From Streptomycetaceae bacterium (lineage in GTDB: Bacteria; Actinomycetota; Actinomycetes; Nanopelagicales; Nanopelagicaceae), in contig JAIXYD010000102.1 in NCBI GenBank assembly GCA_027490415.1, positions 1-11,427 on the forward strand: a stretch of DNA of 11,427 nt. The letters are read 5' to 3'. Positions 366-10,998 of the stretch are shown here, piece by piece (positions within the stretch are counted from its first letter, which is position 1; the number at the start of each line of letters is the position of its first letter). The notes under the pieces were generated by a model. The model did no database searches. It worked only from the letters and a program-made list of their open reading frames with translations, and was not told the DNA's origin. A program made the translations under genes and the position numbers.

Positions 366-1445
366 ATGTCTGCCCTTCTCAGTTTGTCCGTTGTAATTAA
401 TTCATTTCTATTGAGTATGGCAATTTTTAATGCCTTCACAATTGTTCGACCTCGGACCCAGGGATCACAAAATTTGAGTTTTTCCATCCTTGTTCCGTGT
501 CGCAACGAGGCTGAAAATGTCACAGACCTCGTTGCCGCCCTTGGGGCACTCGATCATGCAAGGTATGAAGTTATCTTTATTGATGACAACTCAACGGATG
601 GAACTGGCGAGTTGTTAGTTGAGTCAATCGCGGGTATCCCCTTCATGAAAGTTATTAGTGCAGCCGAGCTTCCAGATGGGTGGCTAGGAAAGCCATGGGC
701 GTTATCGCAAGGGCTTAGCCATGCAACACACGATTACATTGTGACCGTTGATGCTGATGTTCGTTTGGCACCTAATGCGCTATCAGCAATGGATTCAGTT
801 CTGCAGAAAACAGAATCAGATTTTCTCTCGCCCTACCCATACCAAATTGCAGTAACAATGTCAGAGAGAGTTGTACAGCCTCTCTTGCAATGGACATGGA
901 TGACTACGGTTCCACTACGTCTAGCAATGAGAAGTTCTCGTCCATCCTTGGCGGTTGCTAACGGCCAATTCCTCCTTGTTAAGAAAAGTGCCCTCCTTAG
1001 CGTTGGTGGATTTTCAGCCATCAAATCAAGTGTTTTAGATGATATTGATCTAGCGCGTGTCCTCATTCGTGGTGGATTTAGCGGTGGAGTGTGTGATGGC
1101 TCAAAGATTGCAGCAACGCGAATGTATTCATCCTTCAAAGAGATCCGAGCCGGATATGGAAAATCAATGTCTACCGGATTTGGTGGGGCCTTTGGTTCTC
1201 TTTTGCTCGCAGCAGTGATGGCCATCTCTGGACTCCTTCCATTTATCTTTTCATTCTTCGGATCACCGATGGCCACCACTGCATTACTGCTTGTTATCAC
1301 CTCCCGTGTGGTCTCTGCCATTTCTTCACGTTCGCTCATCATCGACAGCCTCTTACATCCCATCTCCACCGTTTTCTTTATCTATCTCTTGATCTACTCC
1401 AACTTCTTCCACACAAAGATCACGTGGAAAGGAAGGTCGATATGA
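366..1445 (+). CDS. cruG: Carotenoid glycosyltransferase, CruG-like (GT2 family)
   Basis: A 359-residue membrane-associated family 2 glycosyltransferase. An N-terminal hydrophobic helix (about 4-27) precedes the GT-A fold: I-L-V-P-C-R-N-E (41-48) and F-I-D-D-N-S-T-D-G-T (71-80) bind the nucleotide sugar, V-D-A-D (128-131) is the metal-binding DxD, and L-D-D-I-D (224-228) sits where the catalytic acidic pair is expected. Two or three hydrophobic helices (about 276-300, 303-320, 332-348) close the protein. Its position directly after cruF points to CruG, which transfers a sugar to the tertiary hydroxyl made by CruF; this is inference from context plus family. The start ATG has no clear ribosome binding site and lies 5 bases after the cruF stop, so translational coupling is likely. 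The stop overlaps the next start as ATGA. A different lipid-linked acceptor is the main alternative. Confidence 0.8.
   Translation: MSALLSLSVVINSFLLSMAIFNAFTIVRPRTQGSQNLSFSILVPCRNEAENVTDLVAALGALDHARYEVIFIDDNSTDGTGELLVESIAGIPFMKVISAAELPDGWLGKPWALSQGLSHATHDYIVTVDADVRLAPNALSAMDSVLQKTESDFLSPYPYQIAVTMSERVVQPLLQWTWMTTVPLRLAMRSSRPSLAVANGQFLLVKKSALLSVGGFSAIKSSVLDDIDLARVLIRGGFSGGVCDGSKIAATRMYSSFKEIRAGYGKSMSTGFGGAFGSLLLAAVMAISGLLPFIFSFFGSPMATTALLLVITSRVVSAISSRSLIIDSLLHPISTVFFIYLLIYSNFFHTKITWKGRSI
1431..1436 (+). promoter_or_regulatory. Ribosome binding site deciding the CrtD-like start
   Basis: GGAAGG lies 5 bases before ATG 1442. It selects that ATG over the in-frame GTG at 1424, which has no comparable site and would add six residues ahead of the FAD-binding motif. 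Confidence 0.7.
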
Positions 1446-2971
1446 CGGCGAATGAAAAAAAGGTCGTTGTGATCGGCGCAGGAATGGGTGGAATGGCAAC
1501 AGCTGCCCGTTTAGCAAAAAAGGGGTACTCGGTTCACGTATTCGAAGCTAGCGATCGCCACGGTGGAAAATGTCGCACCGAGTGGATTCAAGGTTACGCA
1601 TTCGATACAGGACCTTCACTTCTCACACTTCCGGCTGTCTATCGAGATCTCTTTCAACGTACCGGTGATGTTCTAGGCCGAGTCGTCGAACTCACTCCCG
1701 TCGATCCATCATTTGATTATCGATTCCATGATGGAACTTCTGTGAAATTTGCCAATCTCTCGCGCACTAAAACTTTGCAGGCAATTTCGGATTCCTATGG
1801 CATGGATGCATCCAAGGAATGGGATCAGATCATGCGTCGAGCAGAAGCCATGTGGGATGTTTCCCGCGAACCATTTATCGAATCAGAACTTAAATCCGTT
1901 GCTTCTTTATTGAAGCGAAAATCACTCATGAGAGATTTATTTGTCATCTCGCCTTGGAAATCAATCCGTGGGCTTGCAATCAAGAGTCCTCATCTTCGCA
2001 AAATTCTTGATCGCTATGCCACATACAGCGGATCAGATCCTCGTGTTGCACCAGCAGTCCTATCGTCAATTGCTTTTGTCGAAGAAGCATTCGGTGCCTG
2101 GCATATCACTGGAGGTATCGGAAAGCTCGGTGATGCTCTCTATCAACGGTGCTTAGACCGTGGCGTTGTCTTTGAATTCAATGCTCGCGTCTCTGAGATC
2201 ACTCATGAGAGTGGTCGCGTCACAGGTATATCTCTTGAGGATGGTCGTAAGATTTCTGCACCCACGGTTGTCGCAAATGCTGATGCAGGGGTAATTTATT
2301 CAAAACTGATTAAGAATCCGCCAAGTTCAGTCAGTAGAGCGGGACGTTCAATCGCCAAGATGGAGCCATCACTTGCTGGCTTCTCTTTATTGCTTGGACT
2401 TCGACCATCAGATGAACCAAGACTTGAACACCACACGGTTCTATTCCCCGAGAATTACGATCAGGAGTTTGAATCGATCTTTAGCAGGAAAGTCCCAGTG
2501 GATGATCCAACAATCTATATTTGTGCTCCCCGCGATGTAACTATGGTCAAAAAAGAAGGACACGAAGCTTGGTTTGTTTTAGTCAACGCTCCTCGTCACG
2601 GAAGCGATGCCTTTGATTGGAGCGATCGTGATTTTGCAAACCAGTATGCGCAGAAGATAATTGATCGAATTGAATCTCACGGAATTCAAATTCGAAATCG
2701 ACTTGATCTCTTAGAAATTCGCACCCCCGCAGATTTAGAGGCTAGCGTTTTAGCACCGGGCGGATCTATCTATGGCACTTCGAGCAATGGATCACGGAGC
2801 GCTTTTAATCGTGCCAAAAATCGAAGCCCACTGAAAGGCTTGTATTGCGTTGGTGGAAGTGCTCACCCTGGCGGAGGCTTACCTCTCGTTGGGCTAAGCG
2901 CTGAGATAGTTGCTCAAGCAATTATCACGCAAGATAGCGGTGCGCAGCTCTCATCACTTGATAGACACTGA
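1442..2971 (+). CDS. crtD: Carotenoid desaturase, CrtI/CrtD family
   Basis: A 509-residue FAD-dependent carotenoid oxidoreductase. The N-terminal dinucleotide fold is G-A-G-M-G-G (12-17) with the ribose-binding Glu at about 35, followed by the family block G-Y-A-F-D-T-G-P-S. The C-terminal CrtI signature is V-G-G-S-A-H-P-G-G-G-L-P (about 470-481). It is clearly a paralog of the CrtI at 5529. Because it sits with cruF and cruG and not with crtE/crtB, I infer a CrtD-type role: 3,4-desaturation of the 1-hydroxylated psi-end. A ketolase of the same fold (CrtO/CruO type) or a second phytoene desaturase cannot be excluded by eye. The start is ATG 1442, overlapping the cruG stop by 4 bases. The 3' end overlaps the convergent phosphatidyltransferase gene by 47 bases, leaving no room for a terminator between them. 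Confidence 0.75.
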   Translation: MTANEKKVVVIGAGMGGMATAARLAKKGYSVHVFEASDRHGGKCRTEWIQGYAFDTGPSLLTLPAVYRDLFQRTGDVLGRVVELTPVDPSFDYRFHDGTSVKFANLSRTKTLQAISDSYGMDASKEWDQIMRRAEAMWDVSREPFIESELKSVASLLKRKSLMRDLFVISPWKSIRGLAIKSPHLRKILDRYATYSGSDPRVAPAVLSSIAFVEEAFGAWHITGGIGKLGDALYQRCLDRGVVFEFNARVSEITHESGRVTGISLEDGRKISAPTVVANADAGVIYSKLIKNPPSSVSRAGRSIAKMEPSLAGFSLLLGLRPSDEPRLEHHTVLFPENYDQEFESIFSRKVPVDDPTIYICAPRDVTMVKKEGHEAWFVLVNAPRHGSDAFDWSDRDFANQYAQKIIDRIESHGIQIRNRLDLLEIRTPADLEASVLAPGGSIYGTSSNGSRSAFNRAKNRSPLKGLYCVGGSAHPGGGLPLVGLSAEIVAQAIITQDSGAQLSSLDRH

Positions 2972-3542
2972 AGGTTGCCATTGCCGTAAATACATAGATT
3001 GCATATGGCGCAAATGAAAAATCAAGTAGTTCAAGGACCATGAAGATCGATATTGCACTTGCACGTACTGGGCGTTCTGCGATTGTCACCACGCCAATCT
3101 CGTGAAAACCAAGTGATGCCATGCGTGCTCTGGCATATTCCTGTGTGAGCGCAAGAGCAAATAGCGCTAAACAAATCTCTGGTGGAATCCCCCACTGATA
3201 AAGGGCGACGAACCAGAGTCCCTCGGTGATTCGGTCGGCAATAGCATCAAGGGTTGCGCCAAATTGACTGACCTTGCCCGAAACAATGGCAACGCTTCCA
3301 TCAACGCCATCACAAATCAGGGATAGAACTAGGAAGATCAGGGCAATTACTGAATTTGAATAGAAGAGAGCAGCCGTTGCAGTGAGTACGCCAAGTAGGG
3401 TCAAAATATTTGGTGTGATTCTTAAAGCGCTTAATCCACGAGCAATGAAATAAGAGATGCTGAGCCAGCCTTTAACTATTCCCTTAATTTCTGCATCCAG
3501 ATGAAGCTTGCTCCATGTTGCAAAAAACTCTTCACGTTTCAT
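2925..3542 (-). CDS. CDP-alcohol phosphatidyltransferase family protein
   Basis: A 205-residue membrane enzyme that moves a phosphatidyl group from a CDP-linked lipid to an alcohol. The family motif D-x2-D-G-x2-A-R-x8-G-x3-D-x3-D is present at 78-103: D78, D81, G82, A85, G95, D99 and D103 are all in register, but the usual Arg after A85 is Ile86. Hydrophobic helices flank the motif (about 47-77, 105-133, 155-200). Many actinobacteria carry a subfamily with A-V instead of A-R and a later E-R-P-x-R block, and this protein has A-E-R-P-V-R; that is recalled knowledge. The alcohol (glycerol phosphate, inositol phosphate or other) is unknown, so I give no symbol. It starts 3 bases after the metF stop and is almost certainly in the same operon. 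There is no strong ribosome binding site, which fits coupled translation. Confidence 0.8.
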   Translation of the reverse strand: MKREEFFATWSKLHLDAEIKGIVKGWLSISYFIARGLSALRITPNILTLLGVLTATAALFYSNSVIALIFLVLSLICDGVDGSVAIVSGKVSQFGATLDAIADRITEGLWFVALYQWGIPPEICLALFALALTQEYARARMASLGFHEIGVVTIAERPVRASAISIFMVLELLDFSFAPYAIYVFTAMATFSVYQVMRAAHRYLA

Positions 3543-3545
3543 CGC

Positions 3546-4403
3546 TTAGCGCCGATCTTGTAAAGATTCAAAGATTTCGCTAGTCGCAGTCGAACTGTTC
3601 ATTGTGTAGAAGTGGATGCCAGGCACTCCAGCATCAATCAGGTCATTACAAAGATTGAGGGCAATCTCCACGCCTAACTTACGGACATCTTCTGGATTAT
3701 TTTCAACTGCCGCAAAACGCGAAGCGATTGAGTCTGGGATTGGTGTTCCACCGAGCTCTGCCATTTTGGTCAACAATTTCACATTGGTAACTGGGAGAAC
3801 GCCAGCGATGATTGGCAAGCTCGAACCTCGAGCTGCTAATGAATCTACTAAACGCTTCCACTTATCTACTTCAAAGAAGAACTGTGTGGTTGCAAAAGTT
3901 GCGCCAAGCGATTCTTTACGCAGAAGAACATCAATATCTTTATCAAAATTTCCTTCGGAATTGGGATGTCCATCGGGAAATGCGGCAACACCAATCGTGA
4001 AATCTCCATGTTCACGAGCTAATGTGATGAGCTCATCGGCATGGGTCAGTCCACCAGCAACTGGTGTCCATGGTGCGCGTGGACCACCGACCGGATCTCC
4101 GCGTAACGCCAAAATGCTTTTAATTCCAGATTCGGTATATCGATGAAGAATCTCGATGAGTTCATCGCGCGTAGAACCAACACACGTTAAGTGCGCAACG
4201 GTTGGAATGTTGGTTCTTGCAGTGATCTCTGAAGTGATCCGGATGGTGCGATCTCGAGTTCCACCACCGGCACCATAGGTAACGGCGACGAAATCTGGAT
4301 GCAGTGTGGCAAGGCTAGATAAGGCGGCCCACAGGCGATCTTCCCCAGCCACATCTTTCGGAGGAAAGAACTCAAATGAGTACATTCGCTTTTCAAGTCG
4401 CAT
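3546..4403 (-). CDS. metF: Methylenetetrahydrofolate reductase
   Basis: About 285 residues with the hallmarks of MTHFR, the FAD enzyme that reduces 5,10-methylene-THF to 5-methyl-THF for methionine synthesis. Visible blocks are Y-S-F-E-F-F-P-P-K (8-16) with the catalytic Glu at 11, V-T-Y-G-A-G-G-G-T-R, A-H-L-T-C-V, A-L-R-G-D-P, G-V-A-A-F-P-D-G-H-P-N-S and T-Q-F-F-F. Length is slightly under the usual 290-300. The start is uncertain: ATG at 4403 is used here, GTG at 4409 would add two residues, and ATG at 4385 would begin at M-Y-S-F. None has a well-spaced ribosome binding site. It is divergent from crtE and leads the CDP-alcohol phosphatidyltransferase. Function is secure; the start is not. 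Confidence 0.93.
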   Translation of the reverse strand: MRLEKRMYSFEFFPPKDVAGEDRLWAALSSLATLHPDFVAVTYGAGGGTRDRTIRITSEITARTNIPTVAHLTCVGSTRDELIEILHRYTESGIKSILALRGDPVGGPRAPWTPVAGGLTHADELITLAREHGDFTIGVAAFPDGHPNSEGNFDKDIDVLLRKESLGATFATTQFFFEVDKWKRLVDSLAARGSSLPIIAGVLPVTNVKLLTKMAELGGTPIPDSIASRFAAVENNPEDVRKLGVEIALNLCNDLIDAGVPGIHFYTMNSSTATSEIFESLQDRR

Positions 4404-4447
4404 CTCCACGCGGTCAGGGTACCGTTGCCCTCGTGAATAGTCAGGTT

Positions 4448-5518
4448 ATGGATGAACTTGTATCAGTTCGTGAGCAAGTACAGGCAGCCTTGGCTACGTA
4501 TTTATCGCAAGCCCGCTCTCATCTGACCACTATCGGTTCTCAGCTCGCTCCTGTCTGCGACGGACTTGAAGAATTTATTCTTGATGGTGGAAAACGCCTA
4601 CGACCTCTCTTTGCTTACGCCGGACATAAGGCAGCTGGCAAAGATGTTGGGGCGGCTGAGATTAAAGCTTTTGCAAGTTTGGAATTCTTGCAGGCCTGTG
4701 CGCTGATTCATGATGATTTGATGGATGCATCAGATACTCGACGTGGCAAACCGGCAATGCATCGTAGATTTGAGAACTTACATCAAGAGCAAGCACTGGC
4801 TGGCCTGTCAGAACAATTCGGAGCTGCTGCTGCAATTCTTTTGGGTGATCTAGCTCTTGTGCAATCTGATCACATGCTTCACACATCAGGAATTTCATCC
4901 GAGCAACTATTGGATGCACTGGCGGTCCATGATGAGATGCGAATCGAGTTAATGGCTGGTCAATATCTCGATGTTCGCGAGGCGGGCGAAAAGAGCCACA
5001 ATGTAGAACGCTCGCTACGAATTGCACGTTTTAAGTCTGGCAAATACAGCATTGAACGACCATTGCACCTCGGCGCAACAATCGCTCAGCGTGATCCTGC
5101 AATTCGCACTCCGTTAACATGGCGCTTATCCGAATACGGTCTTCCACTAGGTGAAGCATTTCAACTTCGAGATGATCTCCTAGGTATTTTTGGAGATCCA
5201 GAAGTTACCGGAAAGCCTGCAGGCGATGATCTACGTGAAGGAAAGCGCACTGTGCTTATGGCGATGGCGATGGATCGCACTTCAGATGCTGGGCGCAAAG
5301 AACTGACTACCCACTTAGGTGATCCTGAACTTTCTCTTGATGTCATCGAAAAGCTTCGTGGCATCATCAATGAAAGTGGAGCTGTCGATAGCGTTGAGGG
5401 TCTCATTGAGAAACTCACCTTTGACGCTCTCACGGCCTCCAAATCAGCTGAAATTGCAGAAGATTCACAAGAACTATTGGCCGCGCTTGCAGCAAGTGCA
5501 ACTGCGCGGAAGAGCTAG
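4448..5518 (+). CDS. crtE: Polyprenyl (geranylgeranyl) diphosphate synthase
   Basis: A head-to-tail trans-prenyltransferase of about 356 residues that makes the C20 precursor for CrtB. It shows G-G-K-R-L-R-P (47-53), the first aspartate motif D-D-L-M-D (89-93) within A-L-I-H-D-D, and the second motif Q-L-R-D-D-L-L-G (239-246) followed by V-T-G-K-P-A-G-D-D-L-R-E-G-K-R-T-V-L, typical of actinobacterial IdsA/CrtE enzymes. The residues 4 and 5 before the first motif are Ala and Cys, not aromatic, so the chain-length limit is not obvious and a product longer than C20 is possible. Start: ATG 4448 matches where related proteins begin. An in-frame ATG at 4376 would add 24 unlikely residues and overlap the metF start region; GTG 4433 is another option. 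The stop codon forms part of the crtI ribosome binding site, so the two are in one operon. Confidence 0.88.
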   Translation: MDELVSVREQVQAALATYLSQARSHLTTIGSQLAPVCDGLEEFILDGGKRLRPLFAYAGHKAAGKDVGAAEIKAFASLEFLQACALIHDDLMDASDTRRGKPAMHRRFENLHQEQALAGLSEQFGAAAAILLGDLALVQSDHMLHTSGISSEQLLDALAVHDEMRIELMAGQYLDVREAGEKSHNVERSLRIARFKSGKYSIERPLHLGATIAQRDPAIRTPLTWRLSEYGLPLGEAFQLRDDLLGIFGDPEVTGKPAGDDLREGKRTVLMAMAMDRTSDAGRKELTTHLGDPELSLDVIEKLRGIINESGAVDSVEGLIEKLTFDALTASKSAEIAEDSQELLAALAASATARKS

Positions 5519-5521
5519 GAG
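5517..5521 (+). promoter_or_regulatory. Ribosome binding site of crtI, sharing the crtE stop codon
   Basis: AGGAG lies 7 bases before ATG 5529 and its first two bases are the end of the crtE TAG stop (5516-5518). Ribosomes finishing crtE therefore clear or occupy the crtI start signal, coupling the two genes. Confidence 0.75.
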
Positions 5522-5528
5522 ATAAAAA

Positions 5529-7013
5529 ATGGTTGCACGTATCAAGGGTCCAACTGATCACGTCGTTGTTGTCGGCGCAGGTCTTGCCGGGCTCAGCGCT
5601 GCACTTCGCCTTGCTGGTGCAGGACGCAAGGTAACTGTCCTAGAGCGAGCAAGTGTTCCAGGCGGTCGAAACGGTCTACTCAATAAAGATGGGTATGCCT
5701 TCGATACCGGTCCTAGTGTTTTGACAATGCCTTCATTGATTCAAGATGCATTCTCCTGCGTGGGCGAAGATATGAAGGATTGGTTAGACCTCACACCAGT
5801 AAAGCCTCTCTACCGCGCCTTCTATCACGATGGCAGCATTATTAACGTCCATGCAAATACTCAAGAGATGGAAGAAGAAATTGCAAGGACTGTAAGCCCA
5901 GAGGAAGCTCTTGGATATCGTAGATATGTAGATTTTGTTACCAAACTGTACAAGTACGAGATGAACGACTTCATCGATCGAAACATTGATTCGCCATTTA
6001 ATTTGCTCACTCCAAACCTTGCACGACTTGTGGCTCTCGGTGGTTTTAGGCGGCTCGCTCCCAAGGTCAATCAATTCTTGAAAGATCCACGTTTGCAGAA
6101 GGTCTATTCATTCCAGGCTATGTATGCCGGCGTAAGCCCACAGCAGGCGTTGGCCATCTATGCAGTGATTGCTTACATGGACTCCGTCAACGGTGTCTTC
6201 TTCCCTAAGGGTGGAATGCATGCAGTTCCTCGCGCACTTGCAGCGGCTGCAGAAAAGCATGGAGTCGTCTTTAAGTACGACACTGAAGTAACTGGTGTTG
6301 AAGTCGTTAACAAGCGTGCTCGCGCGGTTACAACTGCAACAGGTGAGCGTTACGAATGTGATGCAATTGTCATGAACCCAGATCTACCAGTTGTCTGGCG
6401 CGATATTCTTGGCAAGACTCCACTCAATATCAAGCGTTTAAAGTATTCACCATCGTGTGTGACACTTCTGGTCGGATCCTCAAAGAAATATGATCACACT
6501 GCACATCACAATATTCACTTTGGTGAGTCTTGGGATGGTGTTTTTGACGAGTTAATCAACAAGAAGATCCTGATGACTGATCCTTCCGTACTTGTCACAA
6601 TTCCTAGTAAGGATGATCCATCTCTGGCTCCTGCAGGCAAAGAGTCGTATTACATTCTTTATCCAACCCCTAACTTGGATGCCGATATTGATTGGAAGAA
6701 GCAAGCTGGTCCGTATCGCGATCATATGATTAAGACTTTGGAAGCGCGTGGATACACCGATTTTGAAGCTGGCATTGAAACAGAGGTAATGACAACACCT
6801 CTTGATTGGGAGAGCCAAGGAATGATGCGCGGTGCACCATTTGCTAGCGCACATACTTTCTTCCAAACAGGTCCTTTCAGACCTCGCAATATCGCAGCAG
6901 GTTTTGAAAACATCGTCTTTGCTGGCTCTGGCACACAACCTGGTGTTGGAGTTCCAATGGTTCTCATTTCAGGTCGTCTTGCTGCCGAGCGAATAGTTGG
7001 ACCTGTTAAGTAA
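5529..7013 (+). CDS. crtI: Phytoene desaturase
   Basis: A 494-residue FAD-dependent desaturase that converts colourless phytoene to lycopene (or another desaturation level) at the membrane. The N-terminal FAD fold is V-V-V-V-G-A-G-L-A-G (12-21) with the acidic ribose-binding Glu at 39, followed by G-Y-A-F-D-T-G-P-S. The C-terminal signature is G-S-G-T-Q-P-G-V-G-V-P-M-V-L-I-S-G-R (466-483), the actinobacterial CrtI variant in which Gln and Val replace the usual His and Gly of T-H-P-G-G-G. Placement between crtE and crtB supports the assignment over the paralog at 1442. Its stop overlaps the crtB start by one base (TAATG), indicating coupled translation. The number of desaturation steps cannot be read from the sequence. 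Confidence 0.93.
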   Translation: MVARIKGPTDHVVVVGAGLAGLSAALRLAGAGRKVTVLERASVPGGRNGLLNKDGYAFDTGPSVLTMPSLIQDAFSCVGEDMKDWLDLTPVKPLYRAFYHDGSIINVHANTQEMEEEIARTVSPEEALGYRRYVDFVTKLYKYEMNDFIDRNIDSPFNLLTPNLARLVALGGFRRLAPKVNQFLKDPRLQKVYSFQAMYAGVSPQQALAIYAVIAYMDSVNGVFFPKGGMHAVPRALAAAAEKHGVVFKYDTEVTGVEVVNKRARAVTTATGERYECDAIVMNPDLPVVWRDILGKTPLNIKRLKYSPSCVTLLVGSSKKYDHTAHHNIHFGESWDGVFDELINKKILMTDPSVLVTIPSKDDPSLAPAGKESYYILYPTPNLDADIDWKKQAGPYRDHMIKTLEARGYTDFEAGIETEVMTTPLDWESQGMMRGAPFASAHTFFQTGPFRPRNIAAGFENIVFAGSGTQPGVGVPMVLISGRLAAERIVGPVK

Positions 7014-7924
7014 TGAGCGAACTTGATGCAGCCGGGATCACTGATCCTGCACTTCGCGCATCATATGCCGAGTGCAAGAGACTTAACTCTTTGCATGGAA
7101 AAACGTATTACTTAGCAACACTTCTTCTTCCGCCAGCAAAACGTCCATTTGTGCACGCACTCTACGGATTTGCTCGTTATGCAGATGAAATTGTGGACGA
7201 TCTCGCTTCAACGCTTAGCCCGCAAGAGAAGGCAGATGTACTACGTACATGGAGTTCTGGAGTACTTGCAGATTTATCATTAGGTAAAAGTAATGATGCA
7301 GTAGGTGCGGCTCTGGTGGATACTGTTGCTCGATTTGATATCCCCCATCAACATTTTGTTGACTTTCTGCATTCAATGGAGATGGATCTCACAGTATCCA
7401 CATATGCAAACTATGAGGCGTTGAGTGAGTATGTCTATGGATCCGCTGCAGTTATTGGATTACAAATGGTTCCTATTCTTGGTGCACTCTCAGATGATGC
7501 TTATGAAAGTGCGAAAAAACTCGGGATCGCCTTTCAATTAGCTAACTTCATCCGCGATGTCGGGGAAGATCTCGATCGTGGACGCATTTATCTCCCACTT
7601 GATGAACTTGCAACTCACGGCGTCGACGAAAAAATGCTCTACACACGTGTTCTCACCCCTGAAATTGTTCACGCACTGAAGTTTCAGATCGCTCGCGTGC
7701 GTCAATTACAGTCCGAGGCAGACGCTGGCATTGATCTATTGCATCCGACCAGCCGACCTTGCATCCGCGCAGCAAGCGAACTTTATTGTGGGATTGTTGA
7801 TGAAGTCGAAGCGATTGGCTATGACATCTTCAATAAGCGTGCCAAAACTTCAACGGCCCGCAGACTTCGTGTTGCAGGCAGGGCTTACATTCAGGCCCTA
7901 TCCGCTAGACGTGCGCTAGACTAA
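7013..7924 (+). CDS. crtB: Phytoene synthase
   Basis: A 303-residue squalene/phytoene synthase family enzyme that joins two geranylgeranyl diphosphates head to head to make phytoene, the committed step to C40 carotenoids. The two metal-binding acidic motifs are visible: A-D-E-I-V-D-D (57-63), after the conserved L-Y-G-F-A-R-Y, and R-D-V-G-E-D (181-186), within F-Q-L-A-N-F-I-R-D-V-G-E-D followed by R-G-R-I-Y-L-P. Length matches the family. It overlaps the crtI stop by one base and is the last gene of crtE-crtI-crtB. The end of its coding sequence probably also holds the promoter for the thiamine unit, since the riboswitch begins only a few bases after the TAA. Confidence 0.95.
   Translation: MSELDAAGITDPALRASYAECKRLNSLHGKTYYLATLLLPPAKRPFVHALYGFARYADEIVDDLASTLSPQEKADVLRTWSSGVLADLSLGKSNDAVGAALVDTVARFDIPHQHFVDFLHSMEMDLTVSTYANYEALSEYVYGSAAVIGLQMVPILGALSDDAYESAKKLGIAFQLANFIRDVGEDLDRGRIYLPLDELATHGVDEKMLYTRVLTPEIVHALKFQIARVRQLQSEADAGIDLLHPTSRPCIRAASELYCGIVDEVEAIGYDIFNKRAKTSTARRLRVAGRAYIQALSARRALD
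7917..7922 (+). promoter_or_regulatory. Possible -10 box for the riboswitch transcript
   Basis: TAGACT fits TAnnnT and would start RNA near 7929, just before the aptamer core at 7931. It overlaps the crtB stop codon. I see no matching -35 element at the right distance, so this is tentative; read-through from crtB is the alternative. Confidence 0.25.
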
Positions 7925-7927
7925 AAA

Positions 7928-8021
7928 CGCGGGAGCACATGCGTTACTTGTAACGCTGCTGAGAGGATCTCACTGGGAGATCGACCGCTTGACCCGTCCG
8001 GTAATGCGGACGAGGAAAGGA
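7928..8021 (+). promoter_or_regulatory. TPP riboswitch (THI element)
   Basis: The leader carries the conserved blocks of a thiamine diphosphate aptamer in order. GGGAGC (7931-7936) is followed by a hairpin GCGTTA/TAACGC (7941-7946 with 7951-7956), then GCTGAGAGGA (7958-7967), whose CTGAGA binds the pyrimidine ring. A P3 hairpin follows, GATCTC/GAGATC (7966-7971 with 7977-7982). Then come GACCGCTTGACCC, a GTCCG/CGGAC stem (7996-8000 with 8007-8011) enclosing the invariant GTAATG, and the closing ACGAGGAAAGG. The last block also contains the ribosome binding site of the next gene (AAGGA, 8017-8021), so TPP binding should block translation of pnuT; no terminator hairpin is seen. I could not find a convincing P1 stem, which is unusual. 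Confidence 0.88.
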
Positions 8022-8027
8022 TTAATG

Positions 8028-8573
8028 ATGTCTACCCTCGAAATAATTGCAGCGATGATTTCTTTCATTGGTGTTGCACTCGGTGTGACAGGAAAGCGAA
8101 TTACCTGGCCATGGTGGGCCTTGAGCAGTGTTCTCTACGGAATTCTTTTCATTCAATGGGATTTATTTGCAAGCGCTGCTCTGCAGATCGTCTTTTTTGT
8201 CGCGGCAATTGCGGGTTGGTTCGGCTGGGGTAAGAATGGCGCAGTACCTGGTCCACTTAAGAATACTTATCGGATCTACATAGCGGTTGCAGTAATTCTC
8301 GCAACTCTTGCACTAGCACCAGTTTTAGATCGCATCGGTGCCGCTTCAACCTATGCCGATGCGATTCTTCTCTTCGCTTCAATAGCTGCTCAATTACTTA
8401 TGGTCTATCAGAAATATGAAACGTGGGTTATCTGGCTTGTCGTAAACATTGGGTATACCGCGCTCTATTACAGTCAAGAGCTCTACCCAACTGCCATCCT
8501 CTACGTTGTCTTCACCGTGGTAGCGGCCGTGGGTTGGAGGCGTTGGTATGCAACTTATCGAAGCACTATCTGA
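8028..8573 (+). CDS. pnuT: Thiamine transporter, PnuC family (PnuT)
   Basis: A 181-residue integral membrane protein of the PnuC vitamin-uptake family, with about six to seven hydrophobic segments and few charges between them. The aromatic patterns match the family: W-P-W-W-A-L-S-S near the first third, G-W-F-G-W after the third helix, and W-V-I-W-L-V-V-N late in the protein, where PnuC proteins use W-x2-W-x3-(D/N) to hold the vitamin. PnuC homologs carry nicotinamide riboside, riboflavin or thiamine; the TPP riboswitch directly upstream makes thiamine the best choice (PnuT). Such carriers are thought to equilibrate substrate and need a kinase to trap it. ATG 8028 has ideal spacing (6 bases) to AAGGA; ATG 8025 is adjacent, and a TTG at 7989 lies inside the aptamer and is rejected. 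The 3' end overlaps the kinase gene by 26 bases. Confidence 0.85.
   Translation: MSTLEIIAAMISFIGVALGVTGKRITWPWWALSSVLYGILFIQWDLFASAALQIVFFVAAIAGWFGWGKNGAVPGPLKNTYRIYIAVAVILATLALAPVLDRIGAASTYADAILLFASIAAQLLMVYQKYETWVIWLVVNIGYTALYYSQELYPTAILYVVFTVVAAVGWRRWYATYRSTI
8536..8540 (+). promoter_or_regulatory. Ribosome binding site of the kinase inside pnuT
   Basis: GGAGG lies 7 bases before ATG 8548, within the last codons of pnuT. It fixes the start of the kinase gene and shows that the 26-base overlap is genuine. Confidence 0.75.
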
Positions 8574-9084
8574 GATAACGCAAGCAGTTGAGCAACCCAT
8601 CATTGCAATTGATGGGCCAGCAGGCGCGGGAAAGACCACTCTTGCTTCGACTCTTTCCTTAGCGCTCTCACCGAGCATGAGTACGAGAGTCATTCACATG
8701 GATGAGCTCTACCCAGGTTGGGAGAAGGCACTTGGTGAAGAGTTAAGCAAAACACTGACGTGGCTTACTTCTTGCCACAAAGCGAAGAAACCACTGCTTT
8801 ATTCGTCCTTTAACTGGGGTGCCAATGAATTCCACCCACCCAAGTCACATGAATCAACACAATTACTCATTATTGAAGGTGTCGCTAGCGCACAACTTCC
8901 TATAGAAGAAAGTTTGGCGACCTCAATTTGGCTTGACCTGGATCCAGAGATCGGATTTCGCAGAGTGATCGAAAGAGATGGCGAGAGCATTTCCCTTGAG
9001 ATGAAGAAGTGGCTTGTGATGCAGGAGCAACACTTTGCAGCAGATAGGACGAAAGAGCGCTGCGAATTCATTCTTTCAACCTAA
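8548..9084 (+). CDS. P-loop small-molecule kinase, uridine-kinase-like, substrate unknown
   Basis: A 178-residue P-loop NTPase of the nucleoside/nucleotide kinase type. The Walker A motif is G-P-A-G-A-G-K-T (23-30), preceded by I-I-A-I-D. H-M-D-E-L-Y-P-G-W (50-58) supplies the acidic residue expected after strand 2, L-L-I-I-E-G-V-A-S is the Walker B-like strand, and W-L-D-L-D-P-E followed by R-R-V-I-E-R-D-G resembles the lid of small kinases. Similar proteins with M-D-D-L-Y-x-G-W and a lid ending R-D-G are common in actinobacteria and usually annotated uridine kinase or AAA ATPase; to my knowledge their substrate is unproven. Overlap with pnuT and shared riboswitch control suggest it phosphorylates thiamine or a related compound on entry. 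That is inference; the fold gives no direct sign of thiamine binding. Confidence 0.75.
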   Translation: MQLIEALSEITQAVEQPIIAIDGPAGAGKTTLASTLSLALSPSMSTRVIHMDELYPGWEKALGEELSKTLTWLTSCHKAKKPLLYSSFNWGANEFHPPKSHESTQLLIIEGVASAQLPIEESLATSIWLDLDPEIGFRRVIERDGESISLEMKKWLVMQEQHFAADRTKERCEFILST

Positions 9085-9093: not shown

Positions 9094-10998
9094 ATGTCCG
9101 ATCTCACCGGCAACCTTATTGATGGTCGCTATCAGCTACTGCGCCAGATGGACGCTGGCGGCATGGCCACAATCTATGAAGCCATCGATACTCGTCTAGA
9201 TCGACGCGTCGCAGTAAAAATCATGCATGCACATCTTGCTCAAGATGAGCAATTTGTAGAACGGTTTATCCGCGAAGCTAAAGCTGCCGCTGCATTAAGC
9301 CATCCCAATATTGTCGCTGTCCAAGATCAAGGCTGGAACCAAAGTGGAATTCCAGCAGTCTTTATTGTTATGGAATTGGTTGATGGACACACCCTGCGTG
9401 AGTATCTCAATGAGCGAGGCAAAATCGCGATTGCAGATGGAATTAAGTTTTTGCTTCCCGTGCTGAGCGCACTCGGAGCGGCTCATCGTTTAGGAATTGT
9501 TCACCGAGATGTGAAACCGGAAAACATTCTGGTCTCCAAAGAAGGTCGAATTAAGATCACCGATTTTGGGCTAGCCAAAGGCGCAATGATTGGCAGCACA
9601 ATGACGGCTGAATCAAGTGTGATTTTAGGTAGCGTCTCCTACCTATCCCCCGAACAAGTTTCACGCGGAATAGCTGATTCGCGAAGCGATGTGTACTCGG
9701 CGGCAATTACAGCATTTGAAATATTTACCGGAACTAAACCTTTTGAAGGTGAAGAACCTATCCAGATTGCATTTATGCATGTGAATTCCCGCGTGCCTCG
9801 AATTAGTACATTAATTGATGACGTTCCAGAAGCGCTCGATGATTTGATCTTTGCAGCAACAAGTGTGGATCCGGATGAACGTCCTCGAGATTGCCAGGTA
9901 TTCCATAGTCAGCTACTTGCAATTTCGCAGTCGTTAAACCCATCTGCGCCACAAATGAGTCTCGAATTAGATATTCCTATTGCACCCATGAGAAGTAAGT
10001 CAAAGAAGAAATCTCGCGGCAAGTTTGCCCAGATCACTGAGAGAATTTCATTGACACTTCCAACATCCACCGGGAAAGAGAATACGGCGCAGGTGAAAGA
10101 GCGTAGAAAAGTCAGTAAGCGAGTGCGCCGTAATCGATGGATTGCTGCAGGACTTGCTGTGCTGCTTGGAATTACCACATGGTGGGTTTTGATCGGCCCC
10201 GGTGCATCAGTGAAATTCCCATCTGTTGTGGGAGCCACAACAGAGCAAGCCAATTCCACGCTTACTGCCCTTGGTCTCAAGACAGTAGTCGTTGACGAAC
10301 GCTTTGATGAAGATATAGCAAAGGGGAAAGTAATATCGACTGATCCATTTGCTGGAGACTCAATCGCACTTGGTGGCACTGTCAATTTGGTGGTTTCAAA
10401 AGGTGCAGAGAGATACACCATTCCCTCTCTCATCAATCTGACACCTGAAGCTGCTGTTAATCTTCTGGCTAAATCACCGCTTAAGGTTGGTGAAATTACA
10501 GAAGTGTTTAGCACCAAAGTTCCAAAGGGTTTCGTTATCTCATCAAATCCAGAACAAGGAGCTCGCGTTAAGCGAGATACATTAGTTGATATGGTTGTAA
10601 GCAAAGGTGTAGAAACCTTTAGCCTGGCATCTTTCGTCGGGACAAATGGCGAGCAAGCTCTCAATGAACTTACTGTTGCCGGATTTAATGTGACTACAAC
10701 GTATGCCTTTGATGAGAAAGCAATGCCAGGAGAAGTGATCTCCCAGAACCCAGCAGCCGGAACTCCACTTGCCAAGGGTGCGGCGGTAGAAATATTTGTT
10801 TCTAAAGGTTCCGCCTTTGTCTATATCCCTAATGTGATGCGCTACACCCAAGACCGAGCAGTCGCTCTATTAGAAGATTTAGGGCTAAAAGTTGTCGTCA
10901 AGAAGGTAACCAAGAGTGCAAAATTGGTAATCGGAATAGATCCAAAGGTCAACGCGAAGGTTAAGCGTGGAAGTACGGTGACTCTCACAGTAGGGTAG
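9094..10998 (+). CDS. Transmembrane Ser/Thr protein kinase with PASTA domains, PknL/PknB-like
   Basis: A 634-residue receptor kinase. The cytoplasmic catalytic domain (about 13-275) has V-A-V-K with Lys42, helix-C Glu61, H-R-D-V-K-P-E-N with catalytic Asp139, D-F-G (157-159) and Y-L-S-P-E (183-187), so it should be active. The glycine loop reads M-D-A-G-G-M-A, with Asp20 where the first Gly is usual. A basic, Ser/Lys-rich juxtamembrane stretch (300-348) precedes one transmembrane helix (about 349-367). Outside the membrane are four PASTA repeats (375-437, 441-505, 509-572, 576-634), the first three ending V-S-K-G; such domains sense peptidoglycan fragments or lipid II. The third lacks the usual I-P at its start. 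Proximity to a prenyl synthase gene recalls actinobacterial pknL. It is 9 bases downstream of the kinase gene with its own likely promoter. Start ATG 9094 sits about ten residues before the domain. Confidence 0.93.
   Translation: MSDLTGNLIDGRYQLLRQMDAGGMATIYEAIDTRLDRRVAVKIMHAHLAQDEQFVERFIREAKAAAALSHPNIVAVQDQGWNQSGIPAVFIVMELVDGHTLREYLNERGKIAIADGIKFLLPVLSALGAAHRLGIVHRDVKPENILVSKEGRIKITDFGLAKGAMIGSTMTAESSVILGSVSYLSPEQVSRGIADSRSDVYSAAITAFEIFTGTKPFEGEEPIQIAFMHVNSRVPRISTLIDDVPEALDDLIFAATSVDPDERPRDCQVFHSQLLAISQSLNPSAPQMSLELDIPIAPMRSKSKKKSRGKFAQITERISLTLPTSTGKENTAQVKERRKVSKRVRRNRWIAAGLAVLLGITTWWVLIGPGASVKFPSVVGATTEQANSTLTALGLKTVVVDERFDEDIAKGKVISTDPFAGDSIALGGTVNLVVSKGAERYTIPSLINLTPEAAVNLLAKSPLKVGEITEVFSTKVPKGFVISSNPEQGARVKRDTLVDMVVSKGVETFSLASFVGTNGEQALNELTVAGFNVTTTYAFDEKAMPGEVISQNPAAGTPLAKGAAVEIFVSKGSAFVYIPNVMRYTQDRAVALLEDLGLKVVVKKVTKSAKLVIGIDPKVNAKVKRGSTVTLTVG

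Follow-up and report, generated by a model that had tools for sequence, protein, structure and literature searches.

In the PnuC–NadR system, a nicotinamide riboside transporter is paired with a P-loop ribosylnicotinamide kinase. Enzymes that phosphorylate thiamine include ThiK (YcfN of Escherichia coli), whose fold is of the aminoglycoside-phosphotransferase type, and Tnr3, which is of the thiamine pyrophosphokinase (TPK) type. In the pnuT–tnr3 loci of Bacteroidetes, according to passages of PMC5613172, a thiamine pyrophosphate (TPP) riboswitch is combined with the transporter PnuT and a thiamine-phosphorylating enzyme, Tnr3 being taken to yield TPP in one step. Here we analyzed an 11,427-nt stretch of DNA recorded as Streptomycetaceae bacterium (contig JAIXYD010000102.1 of assembly GCA_027490415.1; hereafter the window), in which a TPP riboswitch, pnuT and a P-loop kinase gene follow one another. 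We propose, with a probability of roughly 85%, that the kinase gene (8548–9084) encodes a thiamine kinase non-homologous to ThiK, ThiL and TPK, which would form thiamine monophosphate (TMP) and work with PnuT and ThiL under riboswitch control.

The proposed mechanism would resemble that of PnuC–NadR but differs in substrate, in its TPP riboswitch and in the sequence family to which the kinase belongs. Riboswitch and PnuT recur in pnuT–tnr3, where, however, the presumed one-step Tnr3 stands in place of what here would be an unrelated P-loop kinase plus ThiL. With ThiK the locus would share the reaction (thiamine + ATP to TMP, with ThiL acting next), whereas the window kinase has a P-loop fold and was not among the matches of the ThiK model. 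The unit consists of the following features:

7919–8035, + strand: TPP riboswitch (THI element) that extends to the translation start of pnuT (RF00059, 33.8 bits, E 3.8e-5; relatives; covariation)
8028–8573, + strand: pnuT, PnuC-family transporter, probably for thiamine (PF04973, E 5.7e-37; riboswitch upstream)
8536–8540, + strand: GGAGG within pnuT, the probable ribosome-binding site of the kinase gene (from the sequence)
8548–9084, + strand: P-loop kinase, proposed thiamine kinase, thiamine to TMP (open reading frame, profile matches, orthologues in 118 of 121 genomes, structure model)
8614–8637, + strand: Walker A motif GPAGAGKT, residues 23–30 (conserved in 51 aligned relatives)
8695–8721, + strand: family motif HMDELYPGW, residues 50–58 (conserved in 51 aligned relatives)

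The pnuT frame begins at ATG 8028, with a second in-frame ATG at 8025, and its stop codon ends at 8573; the kinase frame runs from ATG 8548 to a stop ending at 9084, encodes 178 residues and overlaps pnuT by 26 bases, GGAGG standing 7 bases ahead of its start. An earlier model-made reading of the letters, made without database searches (the sequence-only reading), had placed the kinase start within pnuT, with this same overlap and GGAGG, and the open reading frames bear it out. It had also named a TPP riboswitch upstream of the pair, which is upheld by the RF00059 match, the relatives and covariation. The RF00059 match lies under the Rfam gathering score of 54.3; the default Rfam scan of the window and an RF00059 search of its own genome at E 0.001 returned no match, the element scoring 33.8 bits. 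A GGGAG..CTGAGA element was present ahead of pnuT in all 68 relatives with upstream sequence (59 with the whole pattern, nine with its 5′ part only; locus L001 was left out of the count), and 8 of 19 predicted pairs were kept through changes on both sides among 20 sequences. At its 3′ end the riboswitch extends into the pnuT ribosome-binding region.

The pnuT product carries the domain PF04973 (NMN_transporter; 127.8 bits, cut-off 27.3), and control by a TPP riboswitch, the other mark of a PnuT, was found as a sub-gathering match in the window together with the elements of the relatives; its substrate is probably thiamine, as domain and riboswitch suggest. Judged by named relatives, the window's own genome, a 1.10-Mb metagenome-assembled genome of 68% completeness in which the window is contig C196, appears to belong with the freshwater acI actinobacteria (Nanopelagicales-like). 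PnuT and its riboswitch have already been published for this group: in four acI strains, Kang 2017 described a THI element preceding a PnuC-type gene that was named a probable PnuT, and nearly all thiamine synthesis and salvage enzymes were noted as lacking; in the passages of that paper on transporter and riboswitch, the kinase does not figure (PMC5301498).

Among named public genomes, PnuT was encoded directly upstream at 69 of 71 kinase loci, the exceptions being L071, where the contig breaks off within the kinase gene, and L070, from a distant member of the Micrococcales. Because of this regularity, the pnuT–kinase arrangement is not due to chance. A potential kinase start codon fell inside pnuT at 66 of the 69 loci. 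We extended the comparison to 121 genomes from the order, namely G000 and an even draw of 120 more, the window's genome included. A profile of the kinase (A1) matched 118 of them at E 1e-42 or better; the remaining three (G035, G060 and G111, all of one genus) gave only weak P-loop matches of ~22 bits. In 110 of these 118 genomes the gene immediately before the kinase encodes PnuT; 103 of them were placed by coordinates and four by fetched loci (G028, G038, G046, G103), and the remaining three are G070, G118 and G075, the last across a contig break. Five kinase matches (G115, G038, G103, G072, G076) ran over stop codons, leaving open frames of 165–175 residues (164 in G103); in G076, G103 and G038 the whole kinase frame was read.

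The eight genomes with a kinase and no PnuT beside it (G007, G044, G059, G076, G081, G089, G109, G114) still have the kinase before pknB. Each harbors a TPP riboswitch elsewhere (in two cases scoring under the gathering threshold), located just before ThiB in seven and before YkoE in G044, and the ThiB subfamily model TIGR01254 passes its cut-off in exactly those seven of the 121 genomes. In the kinase-less G035, G060 and G111, the interval from crtB to pknB, which holds the kinase in other genomes, is instead occupied by thiO, thiG and thiE and a TPP riboswitch; a second riboswitch stands ahead of CytX, a hydroxymethylpyrimidine (HMP) transporter by best match, under that model's cut-off. These three genomes gave no ThiB match and no PnuT at the crtB–pknB place; YkoE was likewise without a match in G035, the one of the three searched for it. 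As for other PnuC-family genes, none was found anywhere in G060, that of G111 had no riboswitch in the stretch examined, and that of G035 was rejected as a thiamine carrier, sitting as it does behind a flavin mononucleotide (FMN) riboswitch. Kinase and TPP-linked importer of thiamine type thus occur together in 118 of 118 genomes, and neither was found in the other three, where TMP could come from ThiE. As a side observation, the crtB–pknB interval holds thiamine genes in two unrelated forms, pnuT–kinase or thiO/thiG/thiE, the latter at L104:5809–9785, L105:3341–7312 and L214:459–4430 (genus g8).

Searches for the known enzymes of the pathway point to a gap that the kinase could fill. The TPK catalytic domain PF04263 was found in 0 of 121 genomes, with a model that matched 7 of 14 known genomes in a control (PF04265 and TIGR01378 were not searched). 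ThiK (TIGR02721) was over its cut-off in none of 61 genomes, and the window's own genome had no match to it at E 0.001. ThiL, by comparison, exceeded its cut-off in 108 of the 121 genomes, the window's own among them (194 bits), and gave some match in 119, with many weak second matches resembling other members of its family. ThiE was clear in five; 12 weak or partial matches were not counted, namely a partial one in G017 (18.9 bits; 29.9 with its neighbors, cut-off 27) and 11 weaker ones. With ThiL present and no TPK found, the gap therefore appears to lie at the step from thiamine to TMP: most of the order could convert TMP to TPP, and no known route from thiamine to TMP was seen. Pathway gap and co-occurrence together suggest that the kinase probably has thiamine kinase activity (EC 2.7.1.89).

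These results bear on most of what the sequence-only reading had ventured. Its central idea, a non-homologous thiamine kinase trapping its substrate, gains support from the missing TPK, the presence of ThiL and the co-occurrence. Co-occurrence with thiamine import, along the lines of the check it had proposed, was seen in all 118 kinase genomes, which have PnuT beside the kinase (110), ThiB (7) or YkoE (1). Of the substrates it had left open, thiamine is favored and the precursors HMP and hydroxyethylthiazole (HET) seem unlikely in acI, 116 of 121 genomes being without clear ThiE. It had asked whether such genomes are devoid of tnr3/thiN, thiK or thiL: no TPK was found, nor ThiK over its cut-off, and ThiL is present. 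An ordinary TPK, named there as a ground for rejection, was not detected with PF04263 in the window's genome or any other. A second such ground, a family found mostly away from thiamine genes, applies in part, namely to the members seen in the wider Actinomycetes.

We envisage that thiamine enters through PnuT by facilitated diffusion down its gradient and that the kinase, using ATP, converts it to TMP, which would be trapped inside the cell; ThiL, encoded elsewhere, would add the second phosphate to give TPP. The kinase would be made from the same riboswitch-controlled mRNA, translationally coupled to PnuT, so that TPP binding, by closing the riboswitch, would shut off pnuT and, via the coupling, the kinase.

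As to its sequence, the kinase matched PF00485 (PRK/uridine kinase superfamily) at 28.8 bits (cut-off 22), and its structure model (predicted local distance difference test, pLDDT, 95.3) showed a uridine–cytidine-kinase fold in a VIA-align comparison; the modeled fold appears unlike that of ThiK or TPK. PF04263 was absent from its Pfam matches, and TIGR02721 was not among the best 25 of its 39 NCBIfam matches. Curated uridine kinase models were not reached (TIGR00235, 23.7 of 220.3 bits; PRK05480, 31.8 of 180 bits), and the surroundings here, unlike those of a uridine–cytidine kinase, are those of thiamine. The closest NCBIfam model was NF005115/PRK06547, a ‘hypothetical protein’, at 84.6 bits (E 5e-24, cut-off 173); by these scores the kinase is a distant relative of that family and not a member, the two having the P-loop and a DxxYxGW motif in common. 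Matches to PHROGs reflected the P-loop only and were set aside as uninformative. With 815 proteins at E 0.001, the family is too large for the ‘orphan’ it was first called, whereas the description as uridine-kinase-like and unlike TPK or ThiK stood. We found no published assignment of its function, PRK06547 not being met by name, in a literature search that mostly left out subscription papers.

Across 51 aligned relatives, G23, G26, G28, K29 and T30 of Walker A and H50, M51, D52, L54, Y55, G57 and W58 of the family motif were invariant. The pattern D[DE]xYxGW, its third letter aliphatic or aromatic, was present at 81 of 81 acI loci, in all 11 YkoE-linked kinases described below and in 21 of 32 others. 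In a tree, the acI kinases formed their own clade (support 100/99), separate from NF005115/PRK06547; with deep branches weakly resolved, rows long and composition varying between them, the tree was used for this clade only. A weak paralogue in G081 and G114 (~52 bits; L095, L096) belongs to another family and served as outgroup only.

Outside the order, we surveyed 394 Actinomycetes. NF005115 matched 344 of them at E 0.001, 28 over its cut-off and many weakly; many of the weak matches are surely other P-loop proteins, and the best 150 were compared. PF09819, called ABC_cobalt by Pfam, is what we take to be the YkoE family; it matched 115 of the 394 genomes, as well as Bacillus subtilis in a control. 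Among the matches listed, 11 of the 115 genomes (nine of family f36, two of f4) had a kinase that followed YkoE, in the same orientation, at a distance of 2–4 kb, against an estimated chance expectation of ~0.1. All 11 loci, when read, contained a TPP riboswitch whose score passes the gathering threshold, followed by YkoE, an EcfA bearing two Walker motifs, EcfT and, at the end of the operon, the kinase; possible starts of the latter range from 92 bases upstream of the EcfT stop to 61 bases downstream of it. YkoE of B. subtilis binds thiamine, according to the part of PMC5037267 consulted. Together, the acI kinase and the PRK06547-like family might constitute a general thiamine kinase of Actinomycetes, a P-loop enzyme of uridine-kinase fold with an origin independent of ThiK and TPK, that serves PnuT, ThiBPQ and YkoEDC and replaces TPK class-wide, an extension to which we give slightly less than even odds.

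Elsewhere, family members were located near tRNA genes (f36) or a riboflavin cluster (f26, f33, f20). PnuC-family genes near the latter kinases were considered as a second PnuT pairing and dismissed as incidental: at these loci (L178–L182) the PnuC-like gene is on the opposite strand, ~2–7 kb off with other genes between, and an FMN riboswitch was seen at four of five. By eye, the cluster also shows rib and hisG-like genes. In genus g79 (f36), 8 of 10 NF005115 kinases in L127–L141 have DS in place of DD or DE in the DxxYxGW motif; these loci (L127, L129, L133–L136, L139, L141) are not beside ykoEDC, and the exchange may mark another substrate.

Several points weigh against the proposed function. 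The acI kinases are one clade in the fixed synteny crtB–(pnuT)–kinase–pknB, so that the 110 pairings are not independent, and the kinase loss, seen in the three genomes of one genus, is a single evolutionary event. For the 110 pnuT–kinase genomes, riboswitch presence was not verified one by one, and in G028, with PnuT beside the kinase, none was found in a search of 13 chosen genomes; nor was one found near the kinase at the eight PnuT-less loci. The ThiB genes there reach only 69–112 of the 317 bits of the thiB equivalog TIGR01276, and G007 and G044 retain importer and kinase despite having ThiE and ThiC, the latter recognized through a scan in G007 and by eye in G044. TPK was sought through PF04263 alone, and ThiT and other importers were not searched in the surveyed genomes. 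In the wider class, 104 of the 115 YkoE genomes are without a kinase link among the matches listed, none was found behind 20 of these clusters read individually, and most family members seen are not beside thiamine genes; with the window kinase scoring at half the cut-off of NF005115, the function of one branch may not hold for another.

The kinase could also phosphorylate nucleosides or other small molecules, uridine-kinase-like, and owe its place behind pnuT to an accident of frozen gene order. Fold, top Pfam match and the label ‘uridine kinase’ in many source records agree with this, as do the eight genomes that keep the kinase before pknB without PnuT and with no riboswitch found nearby, and the members near tRNA genes or the riboflavin cluster. 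Yet those same eight genomes carry a different thiamine importer, the only genomes without the kinase are those in which no thiamine importer was found, distant relatives end a second thiamine operon with YkoEDC, and the uridine kinase model stays at about a tenth of its cut-off; without the kinase, moreover, genomes lacking clear ThiE would have no known route to TMP. We consider this explanation improbable. Less probable again, and partly overlapping with it, is that another protein, for instance of the aminoglycoside-phosphotransferase/choline-kinase type, is the acI thiamine kinase. The ThiK model does give weak matches, the best at 72.5 bits against a cut-off of 299.45, in 31 of the 61 genomes searched, but they are not universal, 57 bits being reached in 24 of 61. 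The two that were read pass the choline kinase cut-off (PF01633), for which we rejected them, although this by itself does not exclude thiamine as substrate; of the two, one comes from G035, a genome with neither the P-loop kinase nor a thiamine importer that we could see.

If the kinase does act on thiamine, it might make TPP in one step, or use TMP too, as the Bacteroides PnuT partner Tnr3 is taken to make TPP from thiamine in the passages of PMC5613172. ThiL, however, is kept in 108 of 121 genomes although 116 are without clear ThiE, which fits a TMP intermediate. Known relatives of the fold, moreover, transfer one phosphate, and we give a pyrophosphokinase very little credence. Least credible to us is action on a thiamine precursor (HMP or HET) or breakdown product: TPP riboswitches here also precede precursor importers such as CytX, but the ThiE needed to join the moieties is not clear in 116 genomes, the three genomes with ThiE and CytX do without the kinase, and YkoE is a thiamine binder in B. 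subtilis (PMC5037267, in part).

The kinase behind pnuT is a specific candidate, open to testing, for the step from thiamine to TMP that is missing in very common freshwater bacteria. If borne out, it would add an enzyme family to those already known for this reaction and give PnuC-type carriers a further thiamine-phosphorylating partner. The label ‘uridine kinase’ on many freshwater sequences would then be corrected, and it would become easier to predict which bacteria rely on dissolved vitamin B1 and what form of it they need.

In the window, the order is carotenoid cluster, TPP riboswitch, pnuT, P-loop kinase and PASTA Ser/Thr kinase, the two flanking genes being:

7013–7924, + strand: crtB (phytoene synthase), upstream neighbor, probably outside the unit (PF00494, E 2e-67)
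9094–10998, + strand: pknB-type PASTA Ser/Thr kinase, syntenic downstream neighbor (NF033483, 628.7 bits)

No functional link of the pknB-type gene to the pnuT–kinase unit was seen. At L091 (G044) and L097 (G114), neither crtI nor crtB was found next to the kinase, whose immediate upstream neighbor is a prenyl synthase gene; at L090, L094 and L104, two small genes separate crtB from the kinase or thi genes, with a lycopene cyclase domain in L104, the one scanned. The carotenoid cluster of the window (366–7924) comprises two phytoene-desaturase-like genes (1424–2971 and 5529–7013), a prenyl synthase, crtB and a family-2 glycosyltransferase. Within the same region, the listed frames for a methylenetetrahydrofolate reductase (3546–4409, − strand) and a polyprenyl synthase (4376–5518, + strand) are divergent and overlap by 34 bases.
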